From contig JACQWX010000035.1 of NCBI GenBank assembly GCA_016209035.1, forward strand, positions 1-64,000: a stretch of DNA of 64,000 nt, read 5' to 3'. A model generated the notes under the pieces. It did not search any database. It was not told where the DNA came from and saw only the letters and a list, made by a program, of their open reading frames with translations. The stretch comes from Elusimicrobiota bacterium (lineage in GTDB: Bacteria > Elusimicrobiota > Elusimicrobia > UBA1565 > UBA9628). Numbering within the stretch: position 1 is the stretch's first letter; each line of letters starts with the position of its first letter. The position numbers and the translations under genes are program-made. Positions 5,645 to 60,003 of this stretch are shown in pieces.

Positions 5645-5692
5645 AGGCGCCAGGCTTGAACCTTGTAGCTTGACCCTCTACGCCTGGCGCCT
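5645..5692. repeat. Inverted repeat of the AGGCGCCAGGC family
   Basis: AGGCGCCAGGC at 5645-5655 pairs perfectly with 5682-5692, with a 26-base spacer. It sits between convergent genes and could act as a bidirectional terminator. The same core recurs at 9842-9872, 13128-13166 and 42666-42687. Confidence 0.6.
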
Positions 5693-5706
5693 GGGCCAAA
5701 CCTGGA

Positions 5707-6264
5707 CTATAAAGCGTCGAGAGCCTCCAGCTTCCGCCAGCGATCGGGGTAGCGGGCCTTGAACCGCCGCAGGAGCGACTCGCGCAGAGCCTTCCAGGCG
5801 CCGGCCGCCTTGCCCAGCTTGCGCCGGTCGGAATCCCAGACTAGGAAGGCGTGGATGGCGCGGGCATCGCCCTCGCCGATGCCGCTGGACGACTTTGCGG
5901 CCATCCTGTCCACGCAGCGCTTCCAGATGTCCGCTTCGACCTGCCACACCCACGGCTCGCGGAAGAATTCGGGATGGTCGGCCTTGAGCGAGGAGACCGC
6001 CGCCTCCTTGTCCGGGAGGTTCTTGCCATCCGGTTCGGCGTACCGGTGGTGGAGAGCCCGCGCCGGCGTGTGGCAGGTTCCACAGCGGACGAGGGCCAGG
6101 CTGAAGCCTCCACGCAAGCCCTCCGGCATCCCCCCCGCCCCGCCCAGGGTCCGGGGGCCGAGGTCCGAAGGGAAAATCTCCCTGGCCGGGGCGGCGGGCC
6201 ATGCCGAAAGGCCGACCGCGACGAGGCCCGCGAGGAGCGCCGCCGGCTTTATGGCCGCGGACAT
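5707..6264 (-). CDS. Secreted c-type cytochrome-like protein with one CxxCH
   Basis: 185 residues. An N-terminal signal peptide (hydrophobic ALLAGLVAVGLSAWPAAPA, cleavage near AREI) precedes a single heme-binding motif CGTCH at about residue 63. Trp-rich and charged helices follow; the distal Met ligand is not certain. The start ATG at 6264 shares a base with the stop of the upstream response-regulator gene (a GTG one codon earlier is possible), so the two are translationally coupled. Monoheme periplasmic cytochromes carry electrons or sense redox state; the coupling hints at regulation but no partner oxidase is nearby. Confidence 0.7.
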   Translation of the reverse strand: MSAAIKPAALLAGLVAVGLSAWPAAPAREIFPSDLGPRTLGGAGGMPEGLRGGFSLALVRCGTCHTPARALHHRYAEPDGKNLPDKEAAVSSLKADHPEFFREPWVWQVEADIWKRCVDRMAAKSSSGIGEGDARAIHAFLVWDSDRRKLGKAAGAWKALRESLLRRFKARYPDRWRKLEALDAL

Positions 6265-6941
6265 CACCCTACCAGCTCGTAGCCGTCCGCCGCGGTCTGG
6301 ATGCGGCGGCCCTCCACGCGCCCAAAGTCCTCCCGCAGGCGCTGGACGGTCTTCTCAAGGGCGCTCACGCGCCCCGTGGCCCCCCACAGCGCGGCCAGGA
6401 TCTTCTCCTTGCGCACCGGCCCCGCGGCCTCGATGAGGAGCCTGAGCAGCGAGGCCTTCTGCGGGGAGAGCGTGGCCAGCAGCTTGTCTCCCACCCAGAC
6501 CGTCCGGTAGCGGATGTCGAGGCGCACGGCGCCTTTCTGCACCGTCTCGACGGCCTGGGTCTTGCCCGGGGACTTGGCCAGGACCCGCGCGGCCAGGCGG
6601 ATGAGCTCCCGCAGCTCGAAGGGCTTGCGCAGATACTCGACGGCGCCATGGGCCTTGATGGTCTCCTCGAGCATCCCGGGCTTGTCGGCATGGCCGGTGA
6701 CCACGATGACGGGGATGCGCCGGGCCACCGGATGGGCCGTCGCCTTCTTGAGCACCTCGACCCCGTTGAGCACGGGGAGCATCAGGTCGAGGATGACGAG
6801 GTCGGGATGGAGCGAGAGAATCTTCTCGTAGCCCTCCTGCCCGTTGAACGCATAGTGCGCCTCGTAGCCTTCCTTGAAGAACGCGAGGCTCATCAGTTCC
6901 ATCAGCGCGCCGTCGTCTTCTATCAGCAGGATCCGGGCCAT
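6264..6941 (-). CDS. Response regulator, receiver plus winged-helix-like output
   Basis: 225 residues. Receiver domain at 1-120: ILLIEDDGALMEL acidic pair, LVILDLMLPVLNG with the phosphoacceptor Asp, VVTGHADKP, and EYLRKPFELREL with the conserved Lys. The C-terminal 90 residues (KGAVRLDIRYRTVWVGDKLLATLSPQKASLLRLL, then a recognition helix region ALEKTVQRLREDFG and a final strand pair IQTAADGYELVG) follow the OmpR/PhoB winged-helix pattern but are shorter than usual. It is the first gene of an operon with the monoheme cytochrome. Confidence 0.85.
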   Translation of the reverse strand: MARILLIEDDGALMELMSLAFFKEGYEAHYAFNGQEGYEKILSLHPDLVILDLMLPVLNGVEVLKKATAHPVARRIPVIVVTGHADKPGMLEETIKAHGAVEYLRKPFELRELIRLAARVLAKSPGKTQAVETVQKGAVRLDIRYRTVWVGDKLLATLSPQKASLLRLLIEAAGPVRKEKILAALWGATGRVSALEKTVQRLREDFGRVEGRRIQTAADGYELVG

Positions 6942-7031
6942 GGCCTACTCTAGAAAATCTGGGTCGTTTACTCAAATTTTACCTACGGCCGTCCGCAGCA
7001 GCCGCGCTGACATGCCCTGACACCGAACAAC

Positions 7032-7059
7032 TTGATTAAACGCGGCAAAAGGGTATGCT
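7032..7059 (+). promoter_or_regulatory. Promoter of the MopE-repeat protein gene
   Basis: TTGATT at 7032-7037 and TATGCT at 7054-7059, separated by 16 bases, about 50 bases before the ATG at 7109. That ATG also has a strong GGGGAGG ribosome-binding site at 7096-7102. Confidence 0.5.
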
Positions 7060-7108
7060 TGTAGTAAGACCCAGTGGCGAGGCGTGCCGGAACCTGGGGA
7101 GGTATATT

Positions 7109-8260
7109 ATGAAGCCCATCGGAACGGTATTGCTGACAGGGATCGGGATGCTGGCGCCGGCCGTTATGGCGGCCGAGACCGTCAACTGGCAAGTGACCGT
7201 CACTGCGCAGGAGGAGTTCGTCACCCAGCAGTGGCAGGGATTCTCGGCGACCGTTGGACTCTCCGGCATGGGCGGCGTGAACAACTACGTGCCTCCGCAG
7301 GGGACGGTGCGCCTCGACATCACCGTGGCCTTCCCGGATACCACGGCCTGCCAGAACTGCAGCGAGTCCTTCACCTCCATACCGCTCGGATATCCCTATT
7401 ATGCCGTGTGGTACACCTACCTGGGCGGGGGCGTGCACAAGGTGCAGGTCTTCGGCGGCAACGTCGGCGGCGCGCTGCTCCGCGAGGCGGTCTTCGAGCG
7501 GTATTGCCCCAACGGCTACCGCCAGATGACCGTGATGTTCGACGCCCTGGTCAAGACCACCCAATCGCAGCCCCGCTCGGCTTCAGCCGGCGGGACCATG
7601 ACCGGGGGCCTGGGAGAGGTCCAGTCAGCGCCTTGGGCCGCCGCTCCGGCGGCCCAAGGGGGAGGCACGCTGACGAACTACTCCGCGTCCGTCGCGGGCG
7701 ACAACCCGAAGGTCGAGTTGAGCCTCTCCGTCAATGGGGACAAGGTCTCCGGCACCGTCACGGCCAAGTTCCCATCGTGCGTCCCCTCCCCCGAGGTCTG
7801 CGACGGAGCGGACAACGACTGCGACGGGAGCGTGGACGAGGACCAGGGGATGGCGTCCTGCGGCGTCGGGGCATGCGCCACCGCGGTGCCGGCTTGCGTG
7901 GACGGGAAGGCCAATGCCTGCGTGCCGCTCCCTGCCGGCGCCGAGGTCTGCGACGGAGCGGACAACGACTGCGACGGGAGCGTGGACGAGGACCTCGGGT
8001 CCTTGAGCTGCGGCGCGGGGGCGTGCGCGAACACGGTGGCCGCCTGCGTCGGCGGACAGGTCCAAAGCTGCTCGCCGCTTGCGCCCCAGCAGGAGAGGTG
8101 CGACGGCGTGGACAATGACTGCGACGGCGTGGTGGACAACGGGTGCCCGAACGGCATCATCAACCTGATCCAGCGCCTGCTCACCGACCCCACCCCGCCG
8201 CCAGGCCTCGAGAAGAACCTGGACAAGCTGCTCGACAAGTGGAACAACCGCAGGAAATAG
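7109..8260 (+). CDS. Secreted protein with three MopE-type metal-binding repeats
   Basis: 383 residues. A signal peptide (MKPIGTVLLTGIGMLAPAVMA) leads to a domain of about 200 residues I do not recognise, with CQNCSE and several aromatic strands. The C-terminal third carries three copies of the calcium or metal-binding motif CDGxDNDCDGxVD (residues roughly 227, 278 and 330), spaced by Cys-rich linkers. This motif is found in MopE and many extracellular proteins of Deltaproteobacteria and related groups. The protein ends in a basic amphipathic helix. Codons 175-184 are formed by a perfect palindrome. A SD sequence GGGGAGG precedes the ATG. It is transcribed alone and ends at a strong hairpin. 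Likely surface-located; function unknown. Confidence 0.8.
   Translation: MKPIGTVLLTGIGMLAPAVMAAETVNWQVTVTAQEEFVTQQWQGFSATVGLSGMGGVNNYVPPQGTVRLDITVAFPDTTACQNCSESFTSIPLGYPYYAVWYTYLGGGVHKVQVFGGNVGGALLREAVFERYCPNGYRQMTVMFDALVKTTQSQPRSASAGGTMTGGLGEVQSAPWAAAPAAQGGGTLTNYSASVAGDNPKVELSLSVNGDKVSGTVTAKFPSCVPSPEVCDGADNDCDGSVDEDQGMASCGVGACATAVPACVDGKANACVPLPAGAEVCDGADNDCDGSVDEDLGSLSCGAGACANTVAACVGGQVQSCSPLAPQQERCDGVDNDCDGVVDNGCPNGIINLIQRLLTDPTPPPGLEKNLDKLLDKWNNRRK
7631..7659. repeat. Perfect 13-bp palindrome inside the MopE-repeat gene
   Basis: CCTTGGGCCGCCG, a three-base loop, and its exact complement. It encodes an Ala/Pro-rich stretch (PWAAAPAAQG) in a linker of the protein and is in frame. Confidence 0.7.
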
Positions 8261-36751: not shown

Positions 36752-36798
36752 CAAACTCTCGGGCGGCGGGGAGGTCCATCATGATATCATACCCCATC

Positions 36799-38523
36799 AT
36801 GGCGGGGCCGACGGCCATCCTCGGGGTGTGGGACGGGCATGACGCCGGCTCGGCCATCCTGGTCGAGGGCTCGCTCCTGGCCGCGGCGAACGAGGAGCGG
36901 TTCACCCGGCGCAAGCTCGAGGTCCATTTCCCCGAGGCCAGCATCGGCTTCTGCCTGCGCCAGGCAGGCCTGCGGCCCGACCAGGTGAGTCGGGTCGCCC
37001 TGTCCACGACCGACCCATCCAAGGCCATGACGCGCTGGCTGCCCTCTCTCAAAGAGGAGAACTACCTCCTGCGCCGGCGCAAGAAGCTGCCGGACTGGGC
37101 CACGCCCTACAAGCGCAGGTTCAAGTTCTGGGTCACGAGCCTGCGGCCGAACTGCTTGAGCCGGGCGCTCTCCAGCCTCTATGCCTCCAAGAGGCTCAGG
37201 GCCATGGGCTTTCGTGATTTCGAACTCAAGCTCGTGGACCACCACCTCTGTCACGCCCATAGCGCGGCCGTAGGGTCGGGACTGCCCACCTGCCTGGTCG
37301 TCAGCCTGGACGGCGTCGGAGACGGCTCCTGCGGAGGCGTCTGGGAGTGGGCCGAAGGCCCGCGGGCCGGCAGGCTCCGGGAGGTGGCCCGGCTCGAGGC
37401 CTGGGCCTCGCTGGGCATCTTCTTCGAGACCGTCACGCACCTCATGAACTTCCGCGAGGTCGAGGACGAGGGCAAGGTCATGACCCTGGCCGACTACGCC
37501 TGCCCTGTTCCTGACGCGGACAACCCCATGCTGCGGATGTTCACGGTCGAGGACTTGAGGCTGGCTAGCCCGCTCAGCCGCCGGAGCGCGCAGGTCGAGC
37601 TGGAACGCCTGGCCTGGCGCTTCCCCGCCGACCAGTTCGCCTTCATGGCTCATCGGACGGTCGAAGTGAATGTCTTGGAACTTTTCCGGCAGGCCATGGC
37701 CAAAACGGGAATGAAGGATGTGGCCTACGCCGGCGGCATCGCGGCCAACGTCAAGGTCAACCGACTCATCAGGGAGAAGCTGGGGGTCCGGAGCCTCTTC
37801 GTCTTCCCCCACATGGGAGACGGCGGCCTCGCGGTCGGCGGCGCCTGGGCGCTCGCCAGCGAGTTGGGAGTGCCCTGCGAACCCCTTGGCAGCGTCTTCC
37901 TGGGGCCCGGCTACGCGGACGAGGAGATCGAACGGCTGGCCGCGGCCGAACGCGGCATCATCCTTGAGAAGGTGGCCTCGCCTGCCAAGACCGCGGCAGG
38001 CTTGATCGCCTCCGGCGAGGCCGTGTTCTGGTTCCAAGGCCGCATGGAGTACGGTCCGAGGGCCCTGGGAGCGCGGTCCATCCTGGCCAGGCCTGACTCG
38101 CTGCCCCTCAAGGACTCCCTGAACCTCAGGCTCAAGAGGCGCGCCTGGCACCAGCCGTTTGGTCCCTCCATGCTCGCGTGCGAGGCTTCCCGCCTGCTGG
38201 AGGAGTATCGCGATGCCCCCAATCCCTACATGACCGTGGCCTACATGGTCAAGAAGGACTGCCGAGGAAGCCTGGCGGGGGTCATCAGCGCGGACGGCAC
38301 CTGCCGCCCCCAGATGGTCCCGGAGGACGATTCGCCTTATTCGCATCTGTTGCAGGAACTCCGGCGCCTCACGGGCCTGGGCGCGGTCCTCAACACCAGC
38401 TTCAACCGGCACGGGGAACCCATCGTCTGCTCGCCTGAGGACGCCTTCAGAGCCTTCAGCCAGGCCGCGGTCGACCACATGGTCATCGGGAGCTTCCTGG
38501 CGAAGAAGGCAGGCGCGCCTTAG
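36799..38523 (+). CDS. Carbamoyltransferase (NodU/TobZ/HypF-like family)
   Basis: 574 residues from ATG 36799. The N-terminal Kae1-like domain has ILGVWDGHDAGSAIL, ANEERFTRRK, the metal-binding DHHLCHAHSA near residue 145 and VSLDGVGDGSCG. AYAGGIAANVKVN and HMGDGGLAVGGAW follow. The C-terminal domain contains EYGPRALGARSILARP and NTSFNRHGEPIV, the signatures of O-carbamoyltransferases that move carbamoyl phosphate via an adenylate onto a sugar or antibiotic. The acceptor cannot be told; no glycan cluster is adjacent apart from rmlC 6 kb away. Divergent from the propeller-like gene; TATCAT at 36785-36790 may be its -10. Confidence 0.9.
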   Translation: MAGPTAILGVWDGHDAGSAILVEGSLLAAANEERFTRRKLEVHFPEASIGFCLRQAGLRPDQVSRVALSTTDPSKAMTRWLPSLKEENYLLRRRKKLPDWATPYKRRFKFWVTSLRPNCLSRALSSLYASKRLRAMGFRDFELKLVDHHLCHAHSAAVGSGLPTCLVVSLDGVGDGSCGGVWEWAEGPRAGRLREVARLEAWASLGIFFETVTHLMNFREVEDEGKVMTLADYACPVPDADNPMLRMFTVEDLRLASPLSRRSAQVELERLAWRFPADQFAFMAHRTVEVNVLELFRQAMAKTGMKDVAYAGGIAANVKVNRLIREKLGVRSLFVFPHMGDGGLAVGGAWALASELGVPCEPLGSVFLGPGYADEEIERLAAAERGIILEKVASPAKTAAGLIASGEAVFWFQGRMEYGPRALGARSILARPDSLPLKDSLNLRLKRRAWHQPFGPSMLACEASRLLEEYRDAPNPYMTVAYMVKKDCRGSLAGVISADGTCRPQMVPEDDSPYSHLLQELRRLTGLGAVLNTSFNRHGEPIVCSPEDAFRAFSQAAVDHMVIGSFLAKKAGAP

Positions 38524-42715: not shown

Positions 42716-44080
42716 ATGGCTCGGAAAGTCAAGGCTGACCCCTCTCGCCAGCCCTTCCAGTACCCCTTGAAGCGAGGGTTCGTCGAGCCTGATTTCAAGC
42801 GCCTCCCAGGGTACCGCCAGGTCACGGTCCAGGAATGGGAGAGCGCCCTCTGGCAGCGCCAGCACACGGTCAAGAACCTCAAGGATCTAAAAGTCGCGTT
42901 CGGCGAGCGCCTCCCGGACGACCTTGCCGCGAGCGTCGAGGCCGACCAGCGGGACACCGCCACCATGGCCATCCTGGTCCCTCCGCAGATGCTCAACACC
43001 ATGAACGAGGCTGACCTGTGGAGCGACCCGGTCCGGCGCTACATGCTCCCCGCGGCCCGCGACCGCCACCCGGAGTGGCCGAGCCACCCCATGGCCTCCC
43101 GGGACAGCCTGCACGAGAGCGAGATGTTCGCGGTGGAGAGCCTGGCGCACCGCTATCCCACCAAGGTCCTGGCCGAGCTCACCCACACCTGCCCGCAATA
43201 CTGCGGGCACTGCACCCGCATGGACCTAGTCGGCAACGACGTGCCTCAGGTCAAGAAGCTCAGGTTCGAGCATCCGCCCAAGGAGCGCTACGAGGCCATC
43301 CTCGACTACCTCGCCAAGACCCCCTCGGTGCGCGACGTGGTCGTCTCCGGGGGCGATATCGCCAACGTGCCCATCGCCCAGCTCGTGGATTTCGTCTCCA
43401 AGCTCATGGACCTCCCCAACATCCGGGACGTCCGCCTGGCCACCAAGGCGCTCCAGGCCCTGCCCCAGCACTTCCTCCAGGACGAGGTGCTTAGCGGCCT
43501 CGAACGCCTGGCCAAGAAGGCCTGGGAGCGGGACATCTCCATCGCGGTGCACACCCACATCAACCACGCGGCCCAAGTGACTCCTCTGTTGGGCAAGGCC
43601 GTCCGGAAGATTCTCGCCATGGGCTACCGGGACGTGCGCAATCAGGGCGTGCTCATGCGGGGCGTCAACGCCACGGCCAAGGACCTCCTGGAGCTGTGCT
43701 TCATGATGGTGGACCACGCCAAGATCACGCCGTACTATTTCTACATGTGCGACATGATCCCCAACTGCGAGCACTGGCGGACCTCCGTAGCCGAGGCCCA
43801 GACGCTCCAGCACGACATCATGGGCTACCTCCCCGGCTTCGCCACGCCGAGGATCACCTGCGACGTCCCCCTCGTGGGCAAGCGCTGGATCAACCAGCTC
43901 GCGGCCTACGACAGGATGAAGGGCATCTCGTACTGGACCAAGAACTACCGCACCAGCATCGAAGCGGACGACCCCGACGCGCTCACCCGCCGGTACGAGT
44001 ACTACGACCCTGTCTCCACCCTTCCGGCCGAGGGCCAGGAATACTGGCGCAAGGCGCCCAGGCGCGCGGCCGCCCCCTGA
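42716..44080 (+). CDS. kamA: Lysine 2,3-aminomutase-like radical SAM enzyme
   Basis: 454 residues. The cluster motif CPQYCGHC (CxxxCxxC) is near residue 160, preceded by DSLHESEMFAVESLAHRYP, which aligns with the KamA segment DPLHEDED...LTHRYP. VVSGGDIANVP follows. In Clostridium KamA the substrate lysine is held by two Asp: one in YQCDL and one in VVDAPGGGGK; here YFYMCDMIP and ITCDVPLVGKRW keep both Asp. PLP-binding Lys is likely in that last motif. Divergent residues (CTRMDLVG, CEHWRTS) make a related 2,3-aminomutase possible. Transcribed with rmlC (ATGA overlap). Confidence 0.82.
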   Translation: MARKVKADPSRQPFQYPLKRGFVEPDFKRLPGYRQVTVQEWESALWQRQHTVKNLKDLKVAFGERLPDDLAASVEADQRDTATMAILVPPQMLNTMNEADLWSDPVRRYMLPAARDRHPEWPSHPMASRDSLHESEMFAVESLAHRYPTKVLAELTHTCPQYCGHCTRMDLVGNDVPQVKKLRFEHPPKERYEAILDYLAKTPSVRDVVVSGGDIANVPIAQLVDFVSKLMDLPNIRDVRLATKALQALPQHFLQDEVLSGLERLAKKAWERDISIAVHTHINHAAQVTPLLGKAVRKILAMGYRDVRNQGVLMRGVNATAKDLLELCFMMVDHAKITPYYFYMCDMIPNCEHWRTSVAEAQTLQHDIMGYLPGFATPRITCDVPLVGKRWINQLAAYDRMKGISYWTKNYRTSIEADDPDALTRRYEYYDPVSTLPAEGQEYWRKAPRRAAAP

Positions 44081-44655
44081 TGGCCGCCTTCACCTTCAAG
44101 CCCATGGGCCTCCCGGGCCTGCTCCTCATCGAAGGGAAGCTCTTCCCCGACGAGCGGGGCTTCTTCCTGGAGGCCTACCGGGAGTCCGAACTGACCGCGG
44201 CGGGCATCCCCCCCCGGCTGGTGCAGGACAACGTCTCCAGGTCCGCCAAGGGGACGCTCAGGGGCCTGCACTACCAGAAGAGCCCCGCGGCCCAGGGCAA
44301 GCTCATGCGCTGCCTGCGGGGCAAGGTCTTCGACGTGGCCGTGGACATCCGCAAGGGGTCTTCGACCTACGGCAGGTGGGAGGCCGTCGAGCTCTCGGAC
44401 GAACGCAACATGATGCTCTGGATCCCGGAGGGCTTCGCCCACGGGTTCTTCGTCCTGAGCGACTCGGCCGACATCCTCTACAAGACCACCGACTATTTCT
44501 CGCTGGAGAACGACCGGGGCATCCGCTGGGACGACCCGGCCGTCGCCGTCCGCTGGCCTTCGACGCAAGTCAAGCTCTCGCCCAAGGACGCGCGCCTGCC
44601 GCTCCTGGCCGACGCGGACAACGACTTCGCCTGGACCCCTGGTCCAGGGCCGTGA
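44080..44655 (+). CDS. rmlC: dTDP-4-dehydrorhamnose 3,5-epimerase (RmlC family)
   Basis: 191 residues. Cupin-fold epimerase: PDERGFFLEAYRESEL, VQDNVSRSAKGTLRGLHYQ with the catalytic His, KVFDVAVDIRKGSSTYGRW, and IPEGFAHGFFVLSDSADILYKTTDYF with the Tyr and second His region. It performs the third step of dTDP-L-rhamnose synthesis. No rmlA, rmlB or rmlD is nearby, so the pathway is completed elsewhere. Its ATG overlaps the kamA stop by one base, a curious coupling of an amino-acid enzyme with a sugar enzyme. Confidence 0.88.
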   Translation: MAAFTFKPMGLPGLLLIEGKLFPDERGFFLEAYRESELTAAGIPPRLVQDNVSRSAKGTLRGLHYQKSPAAQGKLMRCLRGKVFDVAVDIRKGSSTYGRWEAVELSDERNMMLWIPEGFAHGFFVLSDSADILYKTTDYFSLENDRGIRWDDPAVAVRWPSTQVKLSPKDARLPLLADADNDFAWTPGPGP

Positions 44656-44675
44656 GACGAACATGAGGTGCCATC

Positions 44676-45110
44676 ATGCCTGAGACCGATCCGATCTTCG
44701 AAGCCGTCAAGGCCGCCGTGGTCTCCAGACTCAAGGACGACCCGCAGGCCCAGCTGCACGTCGGGCCCATCATCCTCGAGCTCGTCCGCGCCGAGCTGGA
44801 GAAGCCGGGCGCCGCGACCAAGCGCGCCATGGCGGAAGCGTGCCACGGCGCCATGAGCGCCCTGCTGCTCCTGGACAAGGACCTCTGCGTCGGAGCCGTG
44901 GAGGTGCTCAAGGGCCTGACCCACATCCTCCAGGAGCGCAGCGGGGACCCCATGCAGACGATGGACTACGCCCTGGAAGGCATCTCGCGCATCGGCGCGT
45001 CGATCTCGTCCGGGCTGCTCTCCGACATCGAGCACCACATCGAGACGGAATTCATGGGGGCCGGGGAGCATTTCAGCCGCCACGCCGAGAAGTACCACAA
45101 GAAAGGCTGA
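44676..45110 (+). CDS. Hypothetical 144-residue helical protein
   Basis: No family recognised. GAGGT seven bases before the ATG is a fair ribosome-binding site. The sequence is predicted mostly helical (FEAVKAAVVSRLKDD, VGPIILELVRAELEKPG, MSALLLLDKDLCVGAVEVLKGLTHIL), without signal peptide or membrane segment, with a His-rich C-terminus (EHHIETEFMGAGEHFSRHAEKYHKKG). It follows rmlC by 20 bases on the same strand. The His cluster could bind metal, which is only a guess. Confidence 0.65.
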   Translation: MPETDPIFEAVKAAVVSRLKDDPQAQLHVGPIILELVRAELEKPGAATKRAMAEACHGAMSALLLLDKDLCVGAVEVLKGLTHILQERSGDPMQTMDYALEGISRIGASISSGLLSDIEHHIETEFMGAGEHFSRHAEKYHKKG

Positions 45111-45254
45111 GGGCTGGCGAGCCCCGACCCCGCCGGCGGAGACGAAACGCCGCATCCTGTCAAGGGCCCCGGGGTCCCGTGGGCCGGGATTGGTTGCCCT
45201 AGCTGGTTCTGGGTCCACGGGCCCTGGCACTCAAGGCTTTCCAGAGACCATACT

Positions 45255-46223
45255 ATGGATATGCCCGACAAGGGCGCCGTTATCCGGGACACGTTCTTCC
45301 TGGGAGTCGCCGTCGTCCTGCACGGCGCCATTTTTGCCGTCGATCCCGGCCTGCGGTGGGGCACCCTGGCCGCTCCCGAGCGCATCATCCCCATCGAGTT
45401 CGTCCAGGCGCCCTTCTCCCCGTTCCTGGCCCCCATACCCCCCGGCGACGGCCGGGGCGACGAGATGCCGGACAACGGTCCCGGGCCCGTGGTCATCCCC
45501 AAGACCCCCCGGCCCGAGCCCAAGGCCAAACCCCAGCTTTCAGCCCCCAAGCCCGAGCCCGAGAAAGCCGCGGCCAAGCCCAAGGCGCCCGAGCCTGCGG
45601 CCAAGGCGCAGCGCCCTAAGCCCAAGAGAGCCGGTCCGCCGGTCAAGCCAGGCCCGACCCCCGCCCAGATCGCCCGCGCCCAGGTCCGGCAGCGGAGGAT
45701 CGATCTGACCCGCGAGCTCGCGGCCTTGAAGGACCCTGACGAGGCCGTGGCGGACTCCTCGGAGGGGGTTGCGGCAGCGGACCTGGCCCTCCAAGACCAT
45801 GGAAGGCCAGGCCCTCGCTCGCAAGCCTCCCTCGAGACCGGGCCTTCGGCCGCATCCGACCCCGATCTCAAGGACGCCCTCAACTCCCAGCCCATGGGCG
45901 GCGGGATCAAGCGCACGGAAGGCTCGATCTCATGGAGCATCGACGGCCCACTGGGGACCAGGAGGCTGCTCCAGCGCCGACTGCCGATCAGCCCTGAGTG
46001 GGTGTCCCAGCGGGGCCTCGACCTCACGGTCCAAGTCAAGTTCCAGGTCCTGGAGGACGGCTCGGTCAAGCCGGGAGCCATCATCAAGGTTACCTCCGGA
46101 TTCCCGGAGCTCGACCGGCTCGCTTTGGACGCCATCAAGCTCTGGAAGTTCGAGGCCGTGCCTAAGTTGGGCGCCTCCGCCCCGCAGACCTGGGGAGTGG
46201 TCACGCTGAGATTCACCATGTGA
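45255..46223 (+). CDS. TonB-family energy transducer
   Basis: 322 residues. A single N-terminal transmembrane helix (FFLGVAVVLHGAIFAVD), a Pro/Lys/Ala-rich periplasmic spacer (PKTPRPEPKAKPQ... to about 140), a helical linker, and a C-terminal TonB domain: LDLTVQVKFQVLEDGSVKPGAIIKVTSG, LDRLALDAIKLWKFEAVP. The arrangement is typical of TonB proteins that transmit inner-membrane energy to outer-membrane receptors; ExbB/ExbD are not in the window. The upstream 140 bases (45111-45254) hold no gene; several GC-rich inverted fragments are seen but no clear terminator. Confidence 0.87.
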   Translation: MDMPDKGAVIRDTFFLGVAVVLHGAIFAVDPGLRWGTLAAPERIIPIEFVQAPFSPFLAPIPPGDGRGDEMPDNGPGPVVIPKTPRPEPKAKPQLSAPKPEPEKAAAKPKAPEPAAKAQRPKPKRAGPPVKPGPTPAQIARAQVRQRRIDLTRELAALKDPDEAVADSSEGVAAADLALQDHGRPGPRSQASLETGPSAASDPDLKDALNSQPMGGGIKRTEGSISWSIDGPLGTRRLLQRRLPISPEWVSQRGLDLTVQVKFQVLEDGSVKPGAIIKVTSGFPELDRLALDAIKLWKFEAVPKLGASAPQTWGVVTLRFTM

Positions 46224-46272
46224 CGGCCGCGGCCATCGGGACCCGGCCGCGGGACGAGCACCCCTAATTCGG

Positions 46273-46278
46273 TATAAT
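46273..46278 (+). promoter_or_regulatory. TATAAT -10 box for the TPR gene
   Basis: A perfect TATAAT 13 bases before the ATG at 46292. Confidence 0.45.
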
Positions 46279-46291
46279 CCAGGCTGCTGCC

Positions 46292-48772
46292 ATGGGATTC
46301 CTAGGGAGAGCGCACGGCCGAGCCAGGCGCCATGCGACGGTCGCGGCGCTGGCGTTGGCGGCGAGCCTGGCCTTGGCCGCCGGCGTCCCGCTCCGCGCTG
46401 AAGGCGCTTCGGGGACGGTGAAGAGCAAGAAAGCCGCCTCCCTGGACGGCTGGGATTCGCTCAAGATGGAGGGGTCCGCCATCCTCGGCGAGCTCAAGCT
46501 GCAGAGCGGCGACTACTCCGGAGCGCGCGAGACCTTCGGCGAGTCCCTGGAGACCAGCGTGAACCTCCGGGACCCGTCGAGCCCGGTCATGGCGCTCGAT
46601 CTCTACCGCAGCGCGCTCCTGGCCGCCGGCCGGGGCGAGGTCGACGAGGCGCGAGGCCACCTTGAGATCCTCATCAACCGCTACCCCGACTCAGAATTCG
46701 CCGTCAAGGGCAGGCAGCTCCTGGCCCTCATCGACCGCGGGGACAAGGTCCGCATCGAAGGGGAGGAGCCGGTCGAACTCGAGCCCCTGGGCGCGCGGCC
46801 CGGCGCCAAGCTCTCCCGCATCCGAGCGAGCCTCCGGAAAGAGCTCTGGCGCGACGCCTTGGGCCAGACCCGGGGATTCCTGGCCGCCAGCCCGGACCAC
46901 GAGTTGGCGGGCGAGGCGCGCCTCTTGGAGGGCCTGCTCTACCTCAAAGTCCAGCCCGCCAAAGCCGCGCCGGTCCTCACGCGCGTGGCCCGGGGCGGTC
47001 CCTCGCACCTGCGCTCCCGCGCCGCCTACCTGCTCGGGTCCGCCGCGGTCTCCCTGCGCAACTGCTCCTGGTTGGCCGAGGACCTTCCCGACCCGTCCGG
47101 ACCTGTCCTTCGGACAGATACCCCCCGGCCGGACCGCTGGCAGCGGGCGCCGGACCGCTGGCAGCGGGCGCCGGACCGCTGGCAGCGGGCAGGCTCGGTG
47201 TGGGCCGCGGCCTGCGACGACTTAAGCGGCCGGCCCGAGTCGGCCGAAGTCAAGTACCGGTCCGTGGCGGAGTCCGCCGGGGAGACCCCGCTCAAAGCGT
47301 ATGCCCTGGCCGCTTTGGCTCAAGCGGCAGCCCGGCAGCAAGAATACGGCTCCGCCCTCATGCTCATGGACAAGGCCGTCTCCGAAGCCGACCGCCACGA
47401 TCTCGACGACGTGGCTGCGGTGGCCGCGCTCTCCCGCGGTCACCTGCTCTACAAGCTGCGCCGCTACCGGGAGGCGGCCTTGGCCTACGGGGCCTTTGCC
47501 GGCGCCTATCCCCAGGACCCGAACAGGACCCTGGCATTGTACCACCGGGCGCTTGCTCTCAAATGGGCGGGCGACAACCGCTCGGCCATCCAGGGATTCG
47601 AGAGCCTCATCGTCCGCTTCCCGGAAACGGTCTATGCCCCGGACGCCCGGCTGCAGCTCGGCCTCCTCTACGATGAGACGGGCCACTCCCAGAAGGCGGT
47701 CGAGAGCTACCGCCGGATGGCCGAGGGGGGCCTTGAGAACCGGAGGGAATCCCTCCTGCTCGAGGCCCAGCACCATTACAACCGCAAGCGCTACCTCTCC
47801 GCCATCCCGCTCTACTGGAAGTTCCTCGCGGAGTTCCCCGACGATCCCCGCCAGGCCGAGGTGGCGACGCTCCTGCTCACCTCTTACTGGGTGGGCTCCA
47901 AGGACGACCCAGGCTTCCTCAAGGCCGCGGAGATGTTCCCCGACCATCCCATCGTGGCGAACCTGCGCTGGAACCTCGCCGCCCAGGCCCACCGGCAGGG
48001 AGACTGCCGGAAGGCCGTGCCCAACCTCCAGCGGTTCGAAGCCGAATACCCTGATTCCCCCCGCATGGAGGAAGGCCTGATGCTCAAGGCCGAATGCCTC
48101 TACGAGCTCAAGGACTACCGCCTGGCGGCCGACGCTTTCACCGAGCTCATTCGGCGCTACCCCAGGAGCAAGCGCGTCCGCGACGCCCGGTTCAAGAAGG
48201 GCCTGGCCTTGCATGGGGCCGGGGACTTCTCGGCCAGCGCCGCCGCCATGAGGCTGGTCGGAGGCTCGGACTCGCTCGCCGCGGACGCCGCCTACAACGC
48301 CGCGCTCTCCGCCGTGAAGACCGGGGACAAGGCCGAAGCCCTCGCCTCGCTCGAGGGCTTCGTGAACGATTTCCCCAGGCATCCCCGCGCGGGCTGGGCC
48401 TTCTTCAAGCTGGGGGAGCTGCGGGAAGGAGCGGGCCGGCACGCGGCCGCGGCCTTGGCCTATGGCCAGGCCACCGAGAACAGGTCCCAAGCGCTCTTCA
48501 ACATGGGCCGCTGCTACGAGAGGATCAAGGATAGGCTTGAGGCCAAGAAGGCCTACGAGGCCCTGCTCAAGGCGCGGCCCGCCAACGACTCCCACCGGCT
48601 CAACGGCCTGGCCAGGCTGGGCCTGTTCTACGAGCTCGAAGGGAAGTTCAAGAAGGCCGCCCAGGTCTACGCCGACATCCTCAAGAACGCTCCCCAGGGC
48701 GACATCCTGGAGCTGGCGCGCAAGAGGCTGCTCGCGCTCACCAAGGACGGCTCGCTCACCACGACGCGCTGA
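46292..48772 (+). CDS. Exported tetratricopeptide-repeat protein
   Basis: 826 residues. A signal peptide (VAALALAASLALAAGVPLRAEG) after a basic start, then about a dozen TPR-like helix pairs: GDYSGARETFGESL, GEVDEARGHLEILINRYPDSEFA, YREAALAYGAFAGAYPQDP, NRSAIQGFESLIVRFPETVYAPDARLQLG, KDYRLAADAFTELIRRYPRSKRVRDARFKKG, KFKKAAQVYADILKNAPQGD. The repeats resemble YbgF/BamD-type periplasmic scaffolds with F/YP at the turn. It probably works with the preceding TonB protein at the envelope (69 bases apart). A 21-base tandem triplication inserts PDRWQRA three times at about residue 280. Confidence 0.85.
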   Translation: MGFLGRAHGRARRHATVAALALAASLALAAGVPLRAEGASGTVKSKKAASLDGWDSLKMEGSAILGELKLQSGDYSGARETFGESLETSVNLRDPSSPVMALDLYRSALLAAGRGEVDEARGHLEILINRYPDSEFAVKGRQLLALIDRGDKVRIEGEEPVELEPLGARPGAKLSRIRASLRKELWRDALGQTRGFLAASPDHELAGEARLLEGLLYLKVQPAKAAPVLTRVARGGPSHLRSRAAYLLGSAAVSLRNCSWLAEDLPDPSGPVLRTDTPRPDRWQRAPDRWQRAPDRWQRAGSVWAAACDDLSGRPESAEVKYRSVAESAGETPLKAYALAALAQAAARQQEYGSALMLMDKAVSEADRHDLDDVAAVAALSRGHLLYKLRRYREAALAYGAFAGAYPQDPNRTLALYHRALALKWAGDNRSAIQGFESLIVRFPETVYAPDARLQLGLLYDETGHSQKAVESYRRMAEGGLENRRESLLLEAQHHYNRKRYLSAIPLYWKFLAEFPDDPRQAEVATLLLTSYWVGSKDDPGFLKAAEMFPDHPIVANLRWNLAAQAHRQGDCRKAVPNLQRFEAEYPDSPRMEEGLMLKAECLYELKDYRLAADAFTELIRRYPRSKRVRDARFKKGLALHGAGDFSASAAAMRLVGGSDSLAADAAYNAALSAVKTGDKAEALASLEGFVNDFPRHPRAGWAFFKLGELREGAGRHAAAALAYGQATENRSQALFNMGRCYERIKDRLEAKKAYEALLKARPANDSHRLNGLARLGLFYELEGKFKKAAQVYADILKNAPQGDILELARKRLLALTKDGSLTTTR
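47129..47190 (+). repeat. 21-bp tandem repeat, three copies, inside the TPR gene
   Basis: Units at 47129-47149, 47150-47170 and 47171-47190 (last base differs). Each contains CCGCT-GGC-AGCGG, a small hairpin, and encodes PDRWQRA. In frame. Confidence 0.9.
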
Positions 48773-57118: not shown

Positions 57119-58345
57119 TTAGGCCCCAGTTCCCCGGAAAGCAAGGATGGCGGCGGCGACGCGGTCCACCAGATGCCTGAACCCCGAGAACCCCAGATAG
57201 GGCCGCTCAAGCACCGGATGGTCGGCATAGTCGGGGTAGCCCACCGGGACATGGATGGAGCCGCCGTCCGACGAGAGGGTCGAGCCGAAAAGCACCGGGG
57301 CGCGGTCGTCATCCGCTCCATCGTCGCCCCGCGACGAGGGCTCCTCTACGGCAAGGCCCAGCTCGCGGCATAAGTCGGCGAGCGCCTCCTCGAGATGCGG
57401 ATCGTCCACTTCGATGACGGCCCGCCGGCCGCTGATCACCCTCTGTATGTGGGCCTGGACGGCCCGGGCCGCGGCGCGCGCCTCCTGGTCCACGAACCGG
57501 CGGCTGGCGGCCTCCTGGCCGAGGGCCCGGCCCAGCGACTCCATGAAGCGCTTGGTGCGCTTGAGGCCCAGCGGCAGGTCGAGCTCCACCAGCCGGACGC
57601 GGTTGCGCCGGGCCAGGGCGCGGGCCGCCCGCCTGCCGTAAGGCAGCGACACGATGACCGAGGCCCGCGCGACCTCTTGGAGCTCTTCCAAGCCCCGCCC
57701 GGAGAGCCAGACCGAAGCGACGCGCCACCCGAGGGCGCTGAAGAGCCGACGGAGCTCGCTGAGATTGCCGGCATGGTCCGGCTCGTCGCGGTCGAAGAGG
57801 TAGCCGACCACCGCCGCAGTGCGGGGTCTGCGCCTTCGGCCCAGGGGCTGTCGACCCGGCGACCCGCGGCCCGGCAAGGGGATGCCTTGGGCCAGGGTCT
57901 CGCAGAACCGGGCGTAGCCGTCCAGCCAGGTGCCGCCCAGCGAGGCCGACGGGATGTGGAGCACGGGCCGGCGGCCCAGGGCTGAGAACCTCCGGGCGAT
58001 GTCCTTGAGCGGGAAATTGAGAAGCTCGTGGAAGTCGAACGAGGTCGTGAACACCGCGTCGGCGTCAGGGTAGCCGCAGACCCGCTCGAAAAGCCGCTCT
58101 ATGGGGCGCAGGCGGTCGGTGGAGAGCCCGACGACCTCCTCCATCACGGCGGACTGCGCCGTATGCAGTACGCGCGACCGGCCGAGCGGCCTGATGAGCT
58201 CGGACTTCAGGTTGTGGCAGTGCTGCATCTCCGCCTTGGTGGCCACGCAATAGGGCCCGTCGACGATCAGGTAGGCGTTGGGGACGGCGTCGACCGCGAC
58301 GAAGACCCCATTGAGGAAAGGGAGCATCTGGCAGCGGTCTTTCAT
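57119..58345 (-). CDS. Nitrogenase component 1-type protein (NifK-like), divergent
   Basis: 408 residues from ATG 58345, overlapping the preceding homologue by four bases. Component 1 family: GPYCVATKAEMQHCHNLK near residue 31 resembles the P-cluster Cys segment, RVLHTAQSAVMEEVVG, then VFTTSFDFHELLNFPLKDIARRF where the second P-cluster Cys of NifK (TTC) is replaced by Ser, LHIPSASLGGTWLDGY, and AVVGYLFDRDEPDHAGNLSELRRLFSALGWRVASVWLSGRGLEELQEVARASVIVSLPYGRRAARAL. This second half is typical of NifD/K, BchN/B and related enzymes. No FeMo-cofactor ligand pattern is visible. Likely a reductase or maturase of unknown substrate. Confidence 0.78.
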   Translation of the reverse strand: MKDRCQMLPFLNGVFVAVDAVPNAYLIVDGPYCVATKAEMQHCHNLKSELIRPLGRSRVLHTAQSAVMEEVVGLSTDRLRPIERLFERVCGYPDADAVFTTSFDFHELLNFPLKDIARRFSALGRRPVLHIPSASLGGTWLDGYARFCETLAQGIPLPGRGSPGRQPLGRRRRPRTAAVVGYLFDRDEPDHAGNLSELRRLFSALGWRVASVWLSGRGLEELQEVARASVIVSLPYGRRAARALARRNRVRLVELDLPLGLKRTKRFMESLGRALGQEAASRRFVDQEARAAARAVQAHIQRVISGRRAVIEVDDPHLEEALADLCRELGLAVEEPSSRGDDGADDDRAPVLFGSTLSSDGGSIHVPVGYPDYADHPVLERPYLGFSGFRHLVDRVAAAILAFRGTGA

Positions 58346-60003
58346 GGCGCCAGGTGCCTCCGGTGTCGCGGGAAGGGCCTGGTCTCGCAGCGGCGCAGAA
58401 GCCTTCGGGCCGTCCTGATGAAGCCCTCCACCCCGAGCTCGAAGGCGTTCTCGCAGAAGCCCGCGATGCCGTGCCTGGCCAGGCGCGGGTCGAAGTTGAG
58501 ATGCGTGAAAGCGAGGTCGACCCCGCCGGCGAGGAGCCCGTCGAGCTCGCCCGCGGTCTTGAAGGGCACGAACTCGACGCCCGCGGACAGGGACGCGGCA
58601 GGCCCCCGCCGCCACCCCTCCGCGGACCCGGCGTCGCAGACGAGGCAGCGCACCCTAAACCCCATCTCGGCCAGCACGGACCCCACCGAGAAGCCCATGG
58701 GCCGGCCTCTGAGGACCATGGCCTCGAGGTCGGCGCGGTCGCCGACCAGGGCGACGGTGCGCTTGCTTGCTGCCTTGCGGAGCGCCAAGAGGCTTTCGAG
58801 ACCGGCATGGGAGGCAGCGGCATGCCCGATGGGACGCGGGTCGAGCCCCAGCACCGCGGCTACCCTGGCCAGCCAAGCCTTCGTGCCCTCGATGCCGAAA
58901 GGAGGATGATAGCGCACCACGGAGAGGCCGTTGCGGATGAAGTGTTCGTCGCCGATCTTCTCCCAGCCGACCGGGTCCCCCCAGACCACGGCGCCGGCCG
59001 AGCCCACGCCCGGCATGGCCCGGATGTCGAGGTCCGGGAACATGGAGCCGGCGACCCGCAGGCCCAGGCTGCCCAGGAGCCGGCCCAGCTCGCCGCGGGC
59101 CGCCAAAGGCGCTCCCGCGAGGATGACGGCCTTGGGATCGCGAAGGCTTGAGAACCTGATCCTGCGCAGGATCCAGTCGATGACGTCATTGAAGGAGGAG
59201 CCCGAATCCCTGGTCTTGGAAGTCCAGACCACGCGCACGCGGGATCCCTTCTCGAGCCGCTTGATGATGGGGCGGGGGTCGTCTCCCACGATCTCCGGAA
59301 GACAGGTGGTCATCAAGTGGATGAAGGCCGGCCTGCCGCGGGAGGCGGCCTCCCTCATCTTGGAGGCCAGCGCCTCGAGGGTCCTCCCTTGCGCGACCTC
59401 GCGCTCGCCCAGGTCCGTATCGTGGTACAGGATGTCGCGCCGGGAAGGGGGATAGCGGTCGTCCGCGAAGAGGCGCAGCGACGCGACGCTGGCCTGGACG
59501 CTGTTGAACCGGCACTCGCGCGACGCGTGCGAGACGACGGCGACCCCTTTCCCGAGGACCACCGCCTCCTCCAGGAACGGCTTCCTCGGGAAGAAGAACT
59601 TCCACCAATCCGCCGTATGGTCGGCCGTCCGATGGAACCGGTCGAGGCGGGAAGGCGGCTGGGGCCCCTGCGGGTCCGAGTAGAGGAGACCGTCCGCCTT
59701 GAGCCGGCGCAGCAGCTTGTCGAACGGGACCGCGCCCAGCACCGACGACAATGCCTGGCCATGGGAGGGGGCGCGGACTTGCCGGCCGGAGGCGGCGTCG
59801 CATGGCCGCAGCTCGCCCCCGCCCGACCCACGACGCACGAGCTCGTAGCTCAGGCGCTCCGAAGCGCGCGCCAACGAGAACTCGACGCCGCGGTCGCTGA
59901 AGCGGAGGGACTCGACGCTCCAGCCGGGCAGGGCTCGCCGCGCCAGAGTCCGGAAGAACTCCAGCCCGGCCTTCCCGGGCTTGTGCCGAACGACTCCCCG
60001 CAT
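58342..60003 (-). CDS. Nitrogenase component 1-type protein (NifD-like) with N-terminal extension
   Basis: 553 residues. The first 130 residues are an extension I do not recognise (WSVESLRFSDRGVEFSLARASERL, FDKLLRRLKADGLLYSDPQG). The component 1 domain then starts: VVSHASRECRFNSVQASVASLR contains one Cys at the position of the second P-cluster ligand, and LMTTCLPEIVGDDPRPIIKRLE matches STCxxxxIGDD of NifD. The first ligand (GCxYxG) is not seen. The C-terminal half has VALVGDRADLEAMVLRG and VRCLVCDAGSAEGW. Last Cys-rich residues CETRPFPRHRRH end it. It is coupled with the second homologue (ATGA). A NifH-type reductase is not in the window. Possible members of the unassigned nitrogenase-like groups. 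Confidence 0.75.
   Translation of the reverse strand: MRGVVRHKPGKAGLEFFRTLARRALPGWSVESLRFSDRGVEFSLARASERLSYELVRRGSGGGELRPCDAASGRQVRAPSHGQALSSVLGAVPFDKLLRRLKADGLLYSDPQGPQPPSRLDRFHRTADHTADWWKFFFPRKPFLEEAVVLGKGVAVVSHASRECRFNSVQASVASLRLFADDRYPPSRRDILYHDTDLGEREVAQGRTLEALASKMREAASRGRPAFIHLMTTCLPEIVGDDPRPIIKRLEKGSRVRVVWTSKTRDSGSSFNDVIDWILRRIRFSSLRDPKAVILAGAPLAARGELGRLLGSLGLRVAGSMFPDLDIRAMPGVGSAGAVVWGDPVGWEKIGDEHFIRNGLSVVRYHPPFGIEGTKAWLARVAAVLGLDPRPIGHAAASHAGLESLLALRKAASKRTVALVGDRADLEAMVLRGRPMGFSVGSVLAEMGFRVRCLVCDAGSAEGWRRGPAASLSAGVEFVPFKTAGELDGLLAGGVDLAFTHLNFDPRLARHGIAGFCENAFELGVEGFIRTARRLLRRCETRPFPRHRRHLAP

Follow-up and report, generated by a model that had tools for sequence, protein, structure and literature searches.

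A divergent nitrogenase-like gene pair of the Elusimicrobia with a predicted three-cysteine, one-aspartate cluster site

What could a pair of nitrogenase-like proteins do that holds only part of the nitrogenase cluster ligands, and with no Fe protein encoded beside it? The question is raised by two genes in a 64,000-nucleotide stretch of an Elusimicrobiota assembly (hereafter the window, bases 1-64000 of one contig), which belongs to a genome of 4.23 Mb in 136 contigs (G000, 93% complete) that the names of its relatives mark as probably elusimicrobial. Both genes lie on the reverse strand and overlap by 4 bases: the K subunit (57119..58345, NifK/BchB-like, 408 residues, ATG start) and the D subunit (58342..60003, NifD/BchN-like, 553 residues), while the open reading frame of 498 residues that had been listed for K is the 408-residue protein plus an upstream GTG extension and adds nothing else. 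The initial annotation had read the two as overlapping NifD/NifK-like genes, and this is confirmed by the gene calls, by the PF00148 profile (95.7 bits for K and 85.6 bits for D, against a curated cut-off of 28.6) and by AlphaFold2 models of the single chains, both of which match component-1 structures, so that a nitrogenase component-1 fold is predicted for D and K alike. We call the window types D1 and K1; these names, as well as D2, H-A, H-B and LEFF used below, are labels coined in this analysis, with G numbers for genomes and L numbers for loci in relatives.

The pair is no chance match or lone oddity, as a search of 5.8 billion proteins returned 43 rows with D as query and 102 with K (each count including the query itself). 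The matches that carry an organism name are all Elusimicrobia, apart from some Deltaproteobacteria at the remote end of the K list. Eleven loci were found in 84,980 species genomes, ten of them titled Elusimicrobia or Elusimicrobiota and one titled 'bacterium' alone. Within the phylum, the D profile at E<=1e-40 (distant D types included) detected 14 of 294 genomes, all in the family of the source genome, and the window type D1 was present in 11 of the 44 genomes of this family at E<=1e-50. PF00148 matches are more widespread in the family (24/44 genomes, 21 above the cut-off, up to 18 matches per genome), and the source genome has 16 of them, together with five NifH matches above cut-off. In a phylogenetic tree the D and K proteins are placed in two clades composed of Elusimicrobia sequences and separate from the reference sequences of NifDK, NifEN, BchNB, BchYZ and Mar, in agreement with the earlier suggestion of a component-1 pair apart from the characterised clades. 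This is a quick tree with long branches and program warnings, covering 31 of the 54 collected D rows, 33 of the 56 K rows and the K from C20 of the source genome; the sequences come from five genomes (G000, G112, G189, G084 and G209), and the 19 references include two each for BchN and BchB and one each for BchY and BchZ, and do not cover CfbD, Anf, Vnf or Isr. Neither tree placement nor NCBIfam cut-offs assign the pair to chlorophyllide oxidoreductase (BchYZ), for which the tree holds one long-branched reference per subunit.

The evidence on function starts with the cluster ligands. In Mo-nitrogenase six cysteines hold the P-cluster, and Cys275 and His442 bind the iron-molybdenum cofactor (FeMo-co). 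Three of the six P-cluster cysteines are present in the window pair: D-Cys164 on the NifD Cys88 column (codon 59512..59514), D-Cys234 on the NifD Cys154 column (59302..59304) and K-Cys33 at the NifK Cys95-type position (58247..58249; the profile alignment puts it exactly there, the multiple alignment one column away), all on the reverse strand, and there is no cysteine on the NifD Cys62 column of window D. D-Cys164 is conserved in 40 of the 43 D matches (the other three are gaps in fragments), D-Cys234 in 43/43 and K-Cys33 in 100/102, compared with 40/102 for K-Cys43. In alignments of chosen sequences (39 of the 43 D and 42 of the 102 K matches, leaving aside fragments, near-duplicates and distant ones) these counts are 39/39, 39/39, 42/42 and 30/42, respectively. 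The partial set of P-cluster cysteines described before is thus real and conserved, with one refinement: two residues past the serine of the 'TTS' that had been noted in place of TTC lies K-Asp104 (codon 58034..58036, reverse strand), which falls on the NifK Cys153 column in both the multiple and the profile alignment, occurs in 55 of the 58 K matches with at least 40% identity (two gaps and one proline make up the rest), and is the predicted fourth ligand. The loss of the FeMo-co ligands was also borne out, since the Cys275 and His442 columns hold Asp and Asn in window D; in the remaining Elusimicrobia rows of the comparison the cysteine column is occupied by Asn, Glu, Pro or Asp, and the cysteine is retained in NifD, NifE and MarD in the same comparison. 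NifB was not found in the source genome either, as TIGR01290 gave no match at E<=0.001 in this 93% complete assembly. Based on the ligand columns, the missing FeMo-co cysteine and the failure to find NifB, we predict a small bridging cluster held by three cysteines and one aspartate, next to a pocket free of metal cofactor. One more conserved cysteine was seen near the C-terminus of D (Cys539, codon 58387-58389), which 35 of the 39 aligned D proteins of the window type have, as do 26 of 31 when all D subtypes are taken together; the Nif, Bch and Mar references all lack it.

This predicted arrangement resembles that of dark-operative protochlorophyllide oxidoreductase (DPOR; BchNB with BchL), which likewise has the component-1 fold predicted for the pair and no metal cofactor, as is expected here; the composition of three cysteines and one aspartate predicted from the conserved columns is also the likely one of DPOR, '1Asp-3Cys' being part of the title of a 2011 paper by Kondo. 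The two differ in where the aspartate is located, on the NifK Cys153 column in the window protein and on the Cys95 column in BchB, the latter being what we take to be the cluster ligand of DPOR. In addition, window D lacks the NifD Cys62-type cysteine and has an N-terminal domain of 110 residues, the pair falls outside the BchN and BchB clades, and scores with the DPOR equivalogs TIGR01279 and TIGR01278 are far below the cut-offs of 419.95 and 490.35 bits (44.4 and 43.3 bits for K; 39.5 bits for D with TIGR01279, and no TIGR01278 match at E<=1).

The gene clusters of relatives offer a candidate Fe protein. D1-K1 is often followed there by a gene for a distinct Fe protein, H-A, after which several relatives have H-B, a D2-K2 pair, radical S-adenosylmethionine (SAM) genes and a gene in which an Fe protein is fused to D, accompanied by the matching K gene. 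H-A is found within 6 kb of D1 at 9 of 16 distinct D1 loci (from 21 rows, after removing three duplicates of one place and merging two tandem D1 copies with their neighbours); it is missing from five loci with enough flanking sequence (the window, C20 of the source genome, L030, the first copy in L031, and L038), and two loci (L039 and L040) are broken off by contig ends. At the genome level, H-A is present in 10 of the 11 D1 genomes of the family (once as a 92-residue fragment) versus 0/33 of the others, uncorrected for kinship. Fe protein and NifD-like protein can also be joined in one chain with K encoded beside it, as at G000:C85:47264-49609 and G000:C20:30768-33227, and such fusions make up 15 of the 51 collected D proteins, in eight genomes; according to a passage in PMC4153887, a fused nifH/nifE was seen in the Methanomassiliicoccales in 2014.

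Because of the fold, the ligand columns and the Fe-protein co-occurrence, we give an even chance to D1K1 being a DPOR-like, ATP-driven reductase of an organic substrate, probably served by H-A. D and K would be the alpha/beta pair forming its catalytic half, and H-A, encoded on another contig, its dedicated Fe protein and probable electron donor; electrons would pass from the [4Fe-4S] cluster of H-A to the bridging cluster on D-Cys164, D-Cys234, K-Cys33 and K-Asp104, which would hand them straight to the substrate, bound where nitrogenase has FeMo-co. As substrate we would expect a conjugated precursor of a cofactor, produced by the extensive set of radical SAM and NifHDK genes that these genomes carry, and the N-terminal domain of D would likely dock the enzyme onto something common to other enzymes of this set. 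Of the earlier proposal of an uncharacterised reductase, the uncharacterised component-1 pair therefore stands, with reduction as the best reading of it. Of the two substrates then suggested, a sulfur compound handled by a Mar-type enzyme is disfavoured by the Asp on the cofactor column and the failure to find NifB, and a tetrapyrrole, our leading guess, is possible. Two HemN-like genes at C20 of the source genome are in favour of the latter, as are the component-1 enzymes with [4Fe-4S] clusters alone that are named in part of PMC12552129, which have tetrapyrrole sites. CfbD, the Ni-sirohydrochlorin reductase component that works with CfbC, is such an enzyme in the same part of that source, and CfbC was the best or second-best NCBIfam model for the five NifH domains scanned, while the CfbD model TIGR03282 gave no match to window D or K at E<=1. 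More broadly, a passage in PMC11423573 has nitrogenase relatives acting in chlorophyll, coenzyme F430, methionine and isethionate metabolism.

Several observations weigh against such a reductase, or against its substrate or partner. No NCBIfam model came near its curated cut-off for D or K. In the tree, BchN and BchY fall on the K side at an open fork, contrary to expectation, so that the alpha/beta split is not firm. The predicted aspartate ligand marks the window type alone, as Asp104 is present in only 1 of the 44 K matches below 40% identity, with proline in 38 of them; likewise, among the K rows without the window-type motif in a five-genome alignment, the NifK Cys153 column has proline in 19/27, and a cysteine lies two residues further on in 20/27. 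With regard to the substrate, ALAD is present in 43 of the 44 family genomes with or without the D/K genes, so that its phylogenetic profile does not track them and is uninformative, CobN/BchH was not found in the source genome, and the best NCBIfam models for 11 radical SAM proteins scanned were peptide maturases in seven cases (HxsC, HxsC4, PapB and mycofactocin models, none exceeding its cut-off) and HemN in two. With regard to the partner, the annotated absence of nifH beside the pair extends to the whole window contig, which has no match to NifH and neither H-A nor LEFF, the five NifH matches of the genome being located elsewhere. The genome's own H-A (C103:158-1006) is next to a K relative without the GPxC cysteine equivalent to Cys33 (GPRR; G000:C103:158-2277), and may thus serve another complex; a second H-A copy in G209:C75 adjoins a similar Cys33-less K. 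Finally, the state of the locus itself is a concern. In L030, a locus of the same genus (matching G209:C110), the D gene (5662-7419) is interrupted by an in-frame TAG where the invariant Glu163 would be encoded, immediately ahead of the invariant cluster cysteine, with the reading frame of the K gene beside it open, and the ratios of nonsynonymous to synonymous substitution between the window and L030 of 0.36 for D and 0.38 for K, compared with 0.145 for PhoH, show constraint, albeit weak.

The window copy is detached and lies away from the other genes of its set, and these last observations could mean that it is a redundant duplicate being lost, the working enzyme being the copy that stands with H-A in relatives, and here perhaps the second D1K1 pair at C20:14042-17022. 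The lack of H-A and LEFF on the contig, the TAG, the substitution ratios above that of PhoH and the presence of the C20 pair would all fit. We think this unlikely, though a real rival, as window D and K are intact and contain the cluster residues of their family, the site has been retained since the split from the relative, and the TAG may be an assembly error of the L030 genome. The window copy is thus intact and weakly constrained, with decay possible.

The N-terminal extension of D corresponds to residues 1 to about 110 (59674..60003, reverse strand), modelled as a helix, four strands and two helices, with block pLDDT (predicted local distance difference test) values of 68 for residues 1-10, 79-94 for 11-70, 52 for 71-80 and 78-91 for 81-110. 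Profile comparison with hhalign matched the D1 domain to that of the D2 type (E 7e-7, probability 92), and a pooled D profile to the C-terminus of the divergent LEFF family (E 8.6e-5, probability 60; score 33.3, whereas none of 60 column shuffles scored above 13.0). By these comparisons the extension, left unexplained by the initial annotation, is a conserved accessory domain common to D1, D2 and the LEFF C-terminus, which explains it in part. LEFF is encoded in 11/11 D1 genomes, and in relatives its gene is often a neighbour of the D/K pair. Of the other genomes 3/33 encode it, among them G258, in which PF00148 has no match. LEFF and D1 form a single chain in two genomes (G189_C45:39032-42376, also present as a 1114-residue public protein with PF00148, and L039:4915-7980, open at the contig end). 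We use 'radical-SAM-like' as a cautious name for LEFF because its similarity to PF04055 is weak (4/10 members, best E 3.1e-4, plus one weak NCBIfam match) and the spacing of its conserved cysteines (176, 201 and 204 in L037:8027) is not CxxxCxxC; comparison with solved structures gave no clear match, the top rows being designed helical proteins aligned to a helical stretch. A canonical radical SAM family (L036:3483 and kin) may also carry the accessory domain, although the comparison is only suggestive: its match to the pooled D profile has E 0.017 with none of 60 shuffles as good, but against the separate profiles the values are E 0.063 for D1 (1/60 shuffles as good) and 0.099 for D2 (3/60), the D2 set containing one stray NifH-like row.

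A domain present on D1, D2 and LEFF, and more weakly on a radical SAM family, could by analogy with the recognition elements of ribosomally synthesised and post-translationally modified peptides (RiPPs) dock a peptide or a protein-bound intermediate as the substrate, and the seven peptide-maturase best matches, all below cut-off, would be in line with this. We consider a peptide substrate quite unlikely, since the substrates of the known component-1 enzymes are small molecules, the many peptide-maturase models in NCBIfam bias its best matches, and no precursor peptide was identified, albeit without a systematic search. A related idea, to which we attach an equally low probability, is that of a nitrogenase-type reductase acting on a carrier-bound intermediate, with the common docking domain, at times linking the NifD-like protein and LEFF in one chain, bringing reductive and radical chemistry to the same carrier, and many D/K/Fe-protein sets forming, one after another, an assembly line for a cofactor or natural product.

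That NifHDK sets lie together in relatives, several at a time and with numerous radical SAM genes, and that NifE is among the sequence matches of D, also allows for a NifEN-like scaffold or maturase, which would assemble or restore a cluster or cofactor on behalf of the other NifDK-like enzymes and not be an end reductase itself. The [Fe8S9C] cluster of NifEN is made by NifB, and the cofactor cysteine that NifE retains is gone from D. As NifEN holds this [Fe8S9C] cluster (in the part of PMC12552129 that deals with it) and NifB was not found in the source genome, a scaffold is very unlikely here. Finally, a C-S bond reductase like Mar (methylthio-alkane reductase) or Isr, or a nitrogenase, was dropped as highly implausible even though among solved structures MarD is the top match of D, both by sequence (E 7e-14) and by fold (Foldseek), because Mar has its P-cluster on six cysteines, of which three are kept here, as well as the cofactor cysteine, replaced by Asp in D, and an [Fe8S9C] active site (the relevant passage of PMC12552129), with no NifB found.

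How does the DPOR-like pair relate to what has been described in this phylum? In 2020 Meheust and colleagues (ISME J 14:2907) reportedly described two clades of groundwater Elusimicrobia that carry nitrogenase paralogues together with a large complement of radical SAM genes. The pair very probably belongs to these group VI paralogues, a known but uncharacterised kind, which a passage in PMC9391474 lists as 'putative tetrapyrrole cofactor biosynthesis genes'. The phylum is the same, homologues of the pair are named Elusimicrobia, and the family loci in relatives have NifHDK-like genes in large clusters with many radical SAM genes, so that the earlier link to an unassigned Elusimicrobia paralogue gains in likelihood; the likeness is one of phylum and gene content. 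The window pair differs in being a detached subtype, the relatives of which have an Fe protein type of their own, an Asp on a P-cluster cysteine column and LEFF as partner. The dedicated Fe protein, the Asp column and the LEFF fusion are not mentioned in the literature searched, which did not extend to the text of the 2020 Elusimicrobia paper, and new here are the predicted ligand arrangement of three cysteines and one aspartate, the link with H-A, the accessory domain shared with LEFF and the LEFF-D fusion. What was a vague paralogue becomes an Elusimicrobia subtype tied to one Fe protein, with four predicted ligands, DPOR-like in composition but rearranged, and a radical-SAM-like fusion partner, and thereby a minimal set of three or four genes fit for expression and assay, while the N-terminal extension as a common module points to how the enzymes of the cluster may meet their substrate.

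Upstream of D in the window, tightly packed on the same (reverse) strand, are genes for a PhoH-like protein with PIN domain (PF02562, 60013..61344), an M20 peptidase (PF01546, 61341..62573) and a class I/II aminotransferase (PF00155, 62570..63898). A meaningful operon of these genes with the D/K pair had been proposed and was set aside, as the gene order differs in L030, the single relative sharing this site that was compared. There the site has retained PhoH, D and K, plus five genes matching window 42716-48772 by their N-termini, but an opposite-strand RimO/MiaB-type gene (UPF0004, TRAM and radical SAM domains) is inserted between PhoH and D. On the far side of PhoH is a CHAT/TPR gene, and the contig ends 2.5 kb past PhoH; we do not count PhoH among the parts of the system. 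One of the genes conserved at this site, window 42716-44080, encodes a 454-residue protein with a CxxxCxxC motif, by eye a radical SAM protein of the lysine 2,3-aminomutase type, which has no Pfam match at E<=0.001.

Some minor observations were made in the source genome and in the clusters of relatives. A further D/K pair at G000:C122:27887-30474 has a D without the N-terminal domain and with all three NifD-type cluster cysteines kept, and a carbamoyltransferase gene is located nearby on the same strand. Carbamoyltransferases of the NodU/HypF type recur near the clusters, e.g. at G000:C83:28136-30907 and at L037:4543-8022, where ferredoxin, carbamoyltransferase and radical SAM domains are combined in one chain, and there is one in the window at 36781-38523. 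A membrane-protein-like family of about 400 residues (L033:14273-15475 and kin), with seven members in seven genomes of the collected clusters, has no Pfam match at E<=0.01 and by eye resembles prepilin peptidases, and a small conserved protein near two clusters, at first precursor-peptide-like, is RidA-like by eye. Lastly, a 3-deoxy-D-arabino-heptulosonate 7-phosphate (DAHP) synthase gene (PF00793) is located between a D and a K gene at L036:7533-8486, and could hint at a shikimate-derived substrate.

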